The position numbers and the translations under genes were made by a program. Below are positions 1,613-3,851 of a stretch of 64,000 bases of DNA, piece after piece. Source of the DNA: Sphingobium aromaticiconvertens (GTDB lineage: Bacteria > Pseudomonadota > Alphaproteobacteria > Sphingomonadales > Sphingomonadaceae); assembly GCF_037154075.1 (NCBI RefSeq), contig NZ_JBANRJ010000001.1, forward strand, positions 4,273,501 through 4,337,500, written 5' to 3'. How positions within the stretch are numbered: position 1 is the stretch's first letter; every line of letters begins with the position of its first letter. Below the pieces are notes generated by a model that made no database searches, was not told where the DNA came from, and saw only the letters and a list, made by a program, of their open reading frames with translations.

Positions 1613-2269
1613 ATGGCACTTTTGAATCAACCGACCCAAGTTTATACTCAAATTCCGAAGTTTCTCGAAACCCTTCGGGCCGGCACAGCACCAGCCAATT
1701 TCAATAATCAGTTCCTAAAGGACATTGGTTTTAAATCGTCAAATCACCGAGCATTTATTCCGCTCCTTAAAGGCCTCGGATTCCTGACGTCAGACGGAAC
1801 CCCTACTGATCGATATAAGCAGTTTTTGGATGGAAGTCGCTGGAAACAAGTATTAGCGGAAGCAGTAAAAGAGGCTTACAGTGATATTTTCGTTATAAAA
1901 GCCAAACCATCGAGTTCTGATCTTTCTATGGTGCAAGGAAAATTCAAAAGCACCTACAATTTATCTGATGTGTCAGCAGAACGAGCAGCAAAGACGTTCT
2001 TAGCCTTAGCGCCACTTTGCGATATAGATATTCTCCATGGGCCTTCCAAGGCATCAACTGCTGCTTCGACGTCCAACGCTACGGCAGAATCGGTTGAGAT
2101 TTCAACACCTAAGGCAGAAATAGAATCATCTCCATCTCATATACATAAGCAGACTAGGGCAAGCCCACTGGGTTTGCACTACAATATACAAATCCACTTA
2201 CCCGCCACCAAGGAAGTCGAAGTTTACAACGCCATCTTCAAATCTATCAAGGAACATCTTCTTGACTAA
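1613..2269 (+). CDS. DUF5343 domain protein, first gene of the HEPN module
   Basis: The 218-residue soluble protein matches the DUF5343 family pattern: an N-terminal helical block with FLKDIGFKSSNHRAFIPLLK and LGFLTSDGTPTDRY, a middle with AVKEAYSDIF, a low-complexity linker rich in Ser, Thr and Ala at about residues 145-180, and a C-terminal motif with YNIQIHLP and YNAIFKSIKEHL. The ATG at 1613 is chosen because GGGGG lies 6-7 bases upstream; an in-frame start at 1532 adds residues with no family character. Its stop overlaps the HEPN gene start by 8 bases, so the two are translationally coupled. The biochemical role of DUF5343 is unknown to me. From its position it could be a sensor, antitoxin or target-recognition partner of the HEPN protein; that is inference. 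Confidence 0.85.
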   Translation: MALLNQPTQVYTQIPKFLETLRAGTAPANFNNQFLKDIGFKSSNHRAFIPLLKGLGFLTSDGTPTDRYKQFLDGSRWKQVLAEAVKEAYSDIFVIKAKPSSSDLSMVQGKFKSTYNLSDVSAERAAKTFLALAPLCDIDILHGPSKASTAASTSNATAESVEISTPKAEIESSPSHIHKQTRASPLGLHYNIQIHLPATKEVEVYNAIFKSIKEHLLD

Positions 2270-2490
2270 AATAGGTCGTGATCTGCGAGATTTTGTTTTT
2301 CGTGGCTTACTTTTTGAGTCAGAAGCCGAAATATTTCGTCGAGCAGGTATCAATGTGGGTATCGACGTCGGAGCAGCAGAAGAACAATTGCTATTCCAAG
2401 CCCTCGCGCCTTTCGGCGTTCCGCGACGTAACAGCGCGCTAGAGATGGCGCGCCTCTATGCGATCCTACACGCATTCGAAAATGAAGTTA

Positions 2491-2500
2491 GGGTCAGGAC
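2491..2500 (+). repeat. IS left terminal inverted repeat
   Basis: GGGTCAGGAC is preceded by TA (2489-2490). Similarity to the other end fades after these ten bases. Confidence 0.9.
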
Positions 2501-3261
2501 TCATTGATTGATCCAGAATATAACGGTCGCGGCGATGCAGATGGCGGACATGAAGGTATGGGCGCAACGATCGTAGCGCGTGTGGATGCGCCGCCAGTCC
2601 TTGATCCTGCCGAACATATTCTCGACTTTGTGCCGCTGTCTATAGAGCGCCGTGTCGTGTGGAATGGGCACTTTCCGGTTCCCCTTTGACGGGATGCAGG
2701 CCGTGATCTTGCGGTCGGCCAGTGCCGCGCGGAACCAGTCGGCGTCATAGCCCTTGTCGCCCAGCAGGACCTTTGCCTTCGGGAAGGCATCGATCATCAG
2801 TGCAGCGCCCTTATAATCGCTCATCTGCCCTTCACTGAGCAGCATGATGAGCGGTCGGCCTTTGCCATCGCATACGGCATGTAGCTTGGAGTTCAGGCCG
2901 CCTTTGGTGCGTCCGATACGTCGGGGAACATCCCCTTTTTAAGCAGGCTTGCCGCCGTCCGGTGTGCTTTCAGGTGGGTTGCATCGATCATCAACTGGTC
3001 GGGCTTGCCGCCCTTTGCTGCCAAGCCAGCGAAGATTTTGTTGAACACGCCGAGCCTGCTCCAGCGGATGAAACGATTGTAGATCGTCTTGTGTGGGCCA
3101 TACTCCTTGGGCGCGTCGCGCCACATCAGCCCGTGCTTGATGACGTAAATGATCCCAGACACTATCCGCCGATCATCCACTCTTGGCACCCCATGAGACA
3201 AGGGAAAATACGGCTCGATCCGGCGCATCTGCGCCTCACTCAGCAGAAACGGAACATCCAT
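2501..3261 (-). CDS. IS5-family DDE transposase, two frames joined by a likely -1 frameshift
   Basis: Frame A runs 3261 to 2893 (122 residues) and starts at an ATG preceded by TAGGAGG. It carries the DUF4096-like N-terminal DNA-binding region and the first catalytic Asp in MIDATHLKAHRT. Frame B, ending at 2501, carries the second Asp in GDKGYDAD and the catalytic Glu in VENMFGRIKDWRRI. The frames overlap, and a run of five A and four G on the coding strand (complement of 2932-2940) is a plausible slippery site. A -1 shift there gives one protein of about 253 residues, a normal length for the IS427 group. Without the shift only the inactive N-terminal product is made. Confidence 0.9.
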
Positions 3262-3325
3262 CGGCAGCGCCTCCTAACGCTGCTATTGAATCAACCCATC
3301 ACCCAATGCGCAAGCAATTTAACAG

Positions 3326-3335
3326 GTCCTGACCC
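3326..3335 (+). repeat. IS right terminal inverted repeat
   Basis: GTCCTGACCC is the exact complement of the left end and is followed by the second TA copy at 3336-3337. Confidence 0.9.
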
Positions 3336-3851
3336 TAGGTCACTCATTCGAGAAACACTTGATGAACAACTTCAGCTTGATTGGTGGGATACCCAAGCAG
3401 TACCAAATAGCGTGAAGAAAATGGCTGAATCCCGACAAAAGACCGCTGAAAAAGACTCATGGCTGGAAGGAGCCAAAGGTGATCGATTAGAATTCGTCGA
3501 TTTTGGCGATTTAGCCACAATAATTTTACAGAATTGGGAATGTTTCAAGGACTTCATGCCCGGTCAAGAATGGATCAAGCAGCGTATGATGGAACTGGAA
3601 AAGGCTCGGAATTTCATTGCCCATAATCGTATGTTACTACCAAGCGAATTTCAGAGAATCTATATGTATATATCTGATTGGAATAAGGTCATCGGCCTGT
3701 AGCAGTTGCTATCCGCCCTCTTCATTCATCGAACATTTAGGTGATTGAGTGAGTGAACATCTGTATGCTGCACAAGGAATTGAGGATGTTCTCGAGAAGG
3801 AAGTGCCGTTCTGATCGTTCTCAAGAAGCCCCGTTGCAGACTTCATCCCCC

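Follow-up and report, generated by a model that had tools for sequence, protein, structure and literature searches.

HEPN ribonucleases (RNases) are the effectors of many defense systems, but to our knowledge it is known for only a few of the two-gene HEPN systems how they are held off and triggered. In HepT-MntA, the partner of the HEPN protein is a nucleotidyltransferase. Here, we describe a module in which a DUF5343 gene is followed by a gene for a Swt1-type HEPN protein, in a stretch of 64,000 nucleotides (hereafter the window) from Sphingobium aromaticiconvertens (assembly GCF_037154075.1, contig NZ_JBANRJ010000001.1, positions 4,273,501 to 4,337,500 of the forward strand). We find that this is a recurrent, co-inherited two-gene unit with DUF5343 as its constant partner. 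Among other described systems, a non-coding RNA holds AbiF in check (PMC12373285), AbiJ-NTD is an N-terminal domain common to several HEPN families, including Ymh and DUF4145 (PMC3710099), and four HEPN-domain systems have been newly validated (PMC13092281). The terms "Swt1," "DUF4145," "winged," and "PDC" are absent from the main text of the latter, although some overlap with the present module is possible.

The original prediction knew of no described system with this pair. However, PADLOC-DB 2.0.0 lists the same two genes as the phage-defense candidate (PDC) PDC-M34, whose A and B profiles are matched strongly by adjacent same-strand genes. PDCs originate in a screen by guilt-by-embedding (preprint by Payne et al., as cited in PMC12988326). 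Most PDCs in the core set of PMC12988326 still await validation. Two other PDCs, M63 and S04, were inactive when tested once in a native host (PMC12409345). We found no mention of PDC-M34 or DUF5343, and no test or mechanism, in the literature searched.

In the window, the DUF5343 gene (1613..2269, plus strand) is of the PDC-M34A type and encodes 218 residues matching PF17278 (E 4.8e-38) and PDLC04589 (E 1.4e-71). The HEPN gene starts with a TTG codon at 2262, overlapping the end of the DUF5343 gene by 8 bp, and is cut by an insertion sequence (IS) into a 5' part (2262..2490) and a 3' part (3336..3702), both on the plus strand, the latter matching PF18731 (HEPN_Swt1, E 1.8e-9). The two parts were searched separately and unjoined, with a 3' query spanning 3331-3702 whose first five bases come from the IS. 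They correspond to positions 2-73 (E 6e-15) and 73-191 (E 4.3e-48) of the 192-position PDC-M34B profile (PDLC04592), with no position missing between them, and most HEPN relatives are 194-197 residues long among the 120 matches listed. The overlapping plus-strand genes and the IS-split Swt1-like HEPN gene were both correctly recognized in the original prediction.

For DUF5343, a protein search (E ≤ 0.001) returned 2763 relatives; with the HEPN 3' piece as query, it returned 1830. When named genomes were scanned with the HEPN alignment, 22 loci were found, and the recurrent DUF5343–HEPN_Swt1 pairing that had been put forward for checking was seen wherever it could be evaluated. DUF5343 lies directly upstream on the same strand at 20/20 evaluable loci, counting broken genes of which the C-terminal part alone remains; L008 and L022, where HEPN is at a contig edge, are outside the counts. 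Reverse scans with DUF5343 gave matches in 11/398 genomes for the phylum, 10/385 for the class, 8/369 for a second class around G401, and 12/326 for the order; these samples and that of the genus overlap, and four of the five hold the match of S. aromaticiconvertens itself. Across 30 Swt1-type pairs, N-domain distances and HEPN protein distances are correlated with an r of 0.915, and the two genes therefore travel together.

Partners were assigned, by reading and with profiles, at the 33 DUF5343 loci over the Pfam cut-off, a tally that excludes the window, L037 (the same gene as L033), and the below-cut-off L036, L112, and L113. A HEPN-type partner is present at 30/33 loci and belongs to one of three families: 1) Swt1-type at 19 loci (including the decayed L043 and the shortened L105), 2) Ymh at six (fused to DUF5343 in L042), or 3) DUF4145-like at five, the three tested having Pfam scores just below the cut-off. 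Both Ymh and DUF4145 belong to HEPN families (PMC3710099). In scans with the PDC-M34 B models, the Swt1-type partners gave matches, whereas the two Ymh and three DUF4145-like partners included gave none, and profile comparison gave no alignment between the DUF4145-like partners and the Swt1 profile. An NCBIfam scan of seven proteins named only one, a Ymh partner, and a literature search for "Hypoth_Ymh"/TIGR02391 found nothing related. The three loci without a partner are L035, a fragment, and L041 and L108, whose DUF5343 proteins have a different C terminus. The database also contains four DUF5343-HEPN fusion proteins, of which one is identical to L042. This swapping of HEPN families beside DUF5343 is new here. 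The original prediction is thus partly supported, by the linkage and by the predicted HEPN fold with its invariant motif (see below). The pair also belongs to a larger group of modules, as DUF5343 is combined with three HEPN-type families.

Alignments divide DUF5343 proteins into three regions, namely the N-domain, a linker that varies, and a ~33-residue tail, corresponding in the window to codons 1-142 (1613..2038), 143-186 (2039..2170), and 187-218 (2171..2266) on the plus strand. The N-domain, basic in most relatives (median pI of 9.1 in 44 rows), is helical and winged-helix-like in an AlphaFold2 model, in which its blocks mostly have a predicted local distance difference test (pLDDT) score of 95-98. 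The linker, with an aligned length of 28-61 in 44 rows, is modeled with low confidence. In the tail, the model shows a helix at residues 202-217, while a strand-like stretch before this helix is not predicted as strand. Among solved structures, the only sequence match to DUF5343 was a weak one, 1ku9 (E 0.15).

The tail profile (A7), built from 23 HEPN-paired loci, matches the window protein with an E of 6.6e-21. It matches 28/33 DUF5343 loci, 17 of which contributed to it and 11 of which did not, and a HEPN-type gene adjoins in 28/28 cases. The tail is absent from L035, L041, L108, L042 (the fusion), and L043 (decayed); by reading, the other three fusions also lack it. Two exceptions blur this neat pairing of tail and partner: the below-cut-off L113 has a DUF4145-type tail with a Ymh partner, and the tail of L049 does not group with its own family. 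A conserved tail common to DUF5343 proteins is new here, and we propose that it docks the HEPN RNase to a nucleic-acid-sensing domain, i.e., that it is a candidate HEPN-docking element. As a side observation, DUF5343-type proteins without tail and without HEPN are found in L041 (1474-2190), L108 (348-1106), and the below-cut-off L112 (1186-1920); those of L041 and L108 have a common alternative C-terminal stretch and may form a separate DUF5343 subtype.

In a search of 385 genomes with the tail only, nine matches were strong and two weak; the weak ones (L098 and L099) are in AT-rich DNA and were set aside. Seven of the nine strong matches are DUF5343 loci, including the window, and the other two are L096 (963-2229) and L097 (853-2124). 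In these two loci, the first protein has a different N-domain with no significant Pfam match; it aligns with the DUF5343 profile over the tail only, with 97% probability, and likewise matches PDC-M34A over the tail only. It is followed by a 172-residue protein with an R-N-Q-C-A-H sequence, which has no significant Pfam match and whose best PADLOC match is marginal (E 0.0026). We call this partner HEPN-like because of its R-x4-H motif alone, and profile comparison gave no support for its being a HEPN protein. L096 and L097 may encode an unrecognized RNase pair.

These observations suggest a more general picture, which we consider to have an even chance of being correct. In a general plug-and-socket layout of bacterial immunity, encoded by two genes, sensors and RNase effectors would each be interchangeable and be linked by one tail of ~33 residues, which would be lost on fusion. 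The sensors would include DUF5343 and at least one further N-domain, and the effectors HEPN proteins of the Swt1, Ymh, and DUF4145-like families as well as an unrecognized R-x4-H family. If the tail is a common connector, this offers a direct test, a function for DUF5343, and a search handle, which has already found the above pairs that Pfam leaves without a significant match to N-domain or partner. If the layout is true, tail searches would reveal systems missed by domain libraries.

In the HEPN protein, the R-N-F-I-A-H (R-x4-H) motif is encoded at 3607..3624 on the plus strand, with R167 (codon 3607-3609) and H172 (codon 3622-3624), numbered as in intact relatives, placed exactly as had been claimed in 28/28 aligned rows. 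The motif is of the R-x4-6-H kind expected in the HEPN RNase superfamily and is invariant in 28/28 and 29/29 aligned relatives. No solved structure matched the HEPN protein by sequence, and a HEPN fold is predicted for it, with the MntA-HepT toxin among the fold matches. The Swt1-type protein would be an R-x4-H RNase effector with an AbiF-like fold.

We propose that the intact module is a two-protein RNase switch, in which a HEPN effector and a DUF5343 control subunit mediate an abortive-type response, a reading we regard as about equally likely to be right or wrong. DUF5343 would contribute a nucleic-acid-binding domain, a flexible linker, and the HEPN-docking tail, while the HEPN protein would be the R-x4-H RNase. 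The predicted HEPN start in the overlap is TTG at 18/20 and ATG at 2/20 window-type loci, and in most of them this weak start, together with coupling of the overlapping genes, would hold the effector at a low level matched to that of its partner. Contact of the N-domain with its trigger, which is most likely DNA that is foreign or damaged, would lead to the release or activation of HEPN, which would cut RNA and thereby stop the infected cell from growing.

The copy in S. aromaticiconvertens is itself very probably a remnant, a reading that concerns this copy and is compatible with the others: an IS that has recently multiplied interrupts its HEPN gene, and DUF5343 by itself would be idle or only repressing. 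The IS5-like element (2491..3335, minus strand) has two transposase reading frames (2893-3261 and 2501-2845) matching Pfam DUF4096 and DDE_Tnp families. It is 845 bp long, with perfect 10-bp terminal repeats and TA at 2489-2490 and 3336-3337 (ends compared in eight copies), and leaves ~76 native HEPN residues before it. Since the genome contains 12 copies at 100% identity (one on contig 2), besides one at 68%, insertion into the HEPN gene is probably recent; the 12 copies also look like a recent burst of the element. On the other hand, both HEPN parts are undecayed and together span the profile. Since one of the two PDC-M34 genes, that of the effector, is interrupted here, the system is presumably inactive in S. 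aromaticiconvertens.

A rival reading, possible but in our view rather unlikely, is that the module is a type II toxin-antitoxin system. HEPN would then be an always-active RNase toxin and DUF5343 its antitoxin, with the tail neutralizing the toxin, the winged-helix domain repressing the promoter, and loss of DUF5343 upon phage infection or stress freeing the toxin. Type II antitoxins have a basic N-domain, a flexible linker, and a C-terminal binding tail, a layout that DUF5343 resembles, and here too there are two small overlapping genes with the DNA-binding-like protein encoded first. The MntA-HepT toxin among the fold matches points the same way, as does the position of the IS, which disrupts the HEPN gene but spares DUF5343. 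Within the 150-bp regions upstream of DUF5343, 14 palindromes were counted, whereas 100 rough two-base-block shuffles yielded 3.6 on average and 11 at most. This excess would fit autoregulation, although the palindromes come from 7/39 loci, not including the window, and terminators of upstream genes may contribute. The pattern of decay, however, speaks mildly against an indispensable antitoxin. DUF5343 is broken and the partner frame open in five loci: L021, L033, and L047, with frameshifts, L048, with a TAG codon, and L005 (7212-10008, Nitratireductor alexandrii), where the DUF5343 gene contains a DUF6414 gene and a transposase gene of the IS1595 type. Only the partner is damaged in two loci (the window and, apparently, L105), and both genes are damaged in three (L020, L024, and L043). 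Polar effects, translational coupling, or assembly and sequencing errors could explain these counts. Natural fusions fit a sensor-effector pair at least as well as a toxin-antitoxin system.

The GC content of the module (43.5% for DUF5343, 48.9% and 42.1% for the HEPN parts) contrasts with 62.2% for the whole window, and module GC is below flank GC at 13/13 loci examined. The neighbors, as judged from their open reading frames (ORFs), are presumably nagZ on one side and a SPOR-domain gene, adjoining argS, on the other. In 18 relatives, the nagZ query is matched over its full length, and these flanks are no more than 161 bp apart in 16/18 (of the other two, one has a 475-bp gap and one is not evaluable). 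Since the flanks are nearly joined and the site empty in these relatives, the module is an inserted cassette; both its AT-richness and its insertion among housekeeping genes had been noted in the original prediction. Within the genus, the PADLOC model detects DUF5343 in only 3/94 genomes. Elsewhere, tRNA genes lie close to the module in L034 (both sides), L042, and L044, suggesting tRNAs as insertion sites, and ThiC genes lie near it in L109 (2635-3417, by eye) and, by Pfam, as two further ORFs, perhaps a repeated insertion place.

It seems improbable that the pair processes RNA under regulation for housekeeping or stress purposes that have nothing to do with phage. In favor of this reading, the Pfam families of neighbor genes are housekeeping or metabolic (best 25 of 86), the window DUF5343 found nothing by tblastn in plasmid and phage records, and close relatives are 73-86% identical to the first row of alignment A1 (rows from the best 120 matches). 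However, sporadic presence, low GC, empty sites, repeated decay, and the swapping of effectors are more in line with accessory conflict genes. The module is real and recurrent, probably conflict-related, and already catalogued as a candidate.

Mobile carriers and defense neighbors were also searched. Using tblastn (E 1e-5), the window DUF5343 had no match in 72,556 plasmid and 50,697 phage records. In viral contigs, the DUF5343 alignment had no match, and the HEPN alignment matched a single short HEPN piece (L100). HEPN queries gave five matches in four plasmid records, and the two examined are other architectures. One (L101, 2936-4387, Erythrobacteraceae plasmid) is a 483-residue protein with a Swt1-HEPN C terminus, encoded next to an integrase gene and with a ParB gene nearby, and the other is a solo HEPN gene with no tail nearby. 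The 111 ORFs within three positions on each side of the module at 22 loci matched 26 PADLOC families (E ≤ 1e-8), each in one ORF (best 25 of 26), pAgo, mad2, and CARF among them. Ten of these ORFs, scanned singly, gave two matches, a Mad3/Mad8-like protein in L024 and a Fic protein in L007. The next 99 ORFs outward matched 132 families; among the best 25 of these, mad3 was matched by three ORFs, AriA by two, and GajA and GajB each strongly by one. The defense-island enrichment suggested as a check was not shown close to the module, in up to three ORFs on each side and the next 99 ORFs, with no genome-wide background run.

The N-domain of DUF5343 bears some similarity to the DNA-recognition domains of BspD6I, BpuJI, and PaqCI, too weak to claim kinship; single winged-helix regulators have scores in a similar range, and DUF5343, unlike these enzymes, has no nuclease domain. 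In AbiF/Abi_2 systems, control is by a non-coding RNA, whereas here it would be by a protein partner, DUF5343; Rfam at gathering scores found only four tRNA matches in the window and 18 loci, and no AbiF-type structured RNA. HepT-MntA (HEPN-MNT) is similar in that a HEPN effector has a protein partner encoded by an adjoining gene, but that partner is a nucleotidyltransferase whereas here it is DUF5343, for which the Pfam scan gave no nucleotidyltransferase match. AbiJ-NTD systems also have an N-domain common to several HEPN families, but their domains are fused to HEPN, whereas the module described here mostly consists of two genes, and its conserved tail is absent from the fusions seen.
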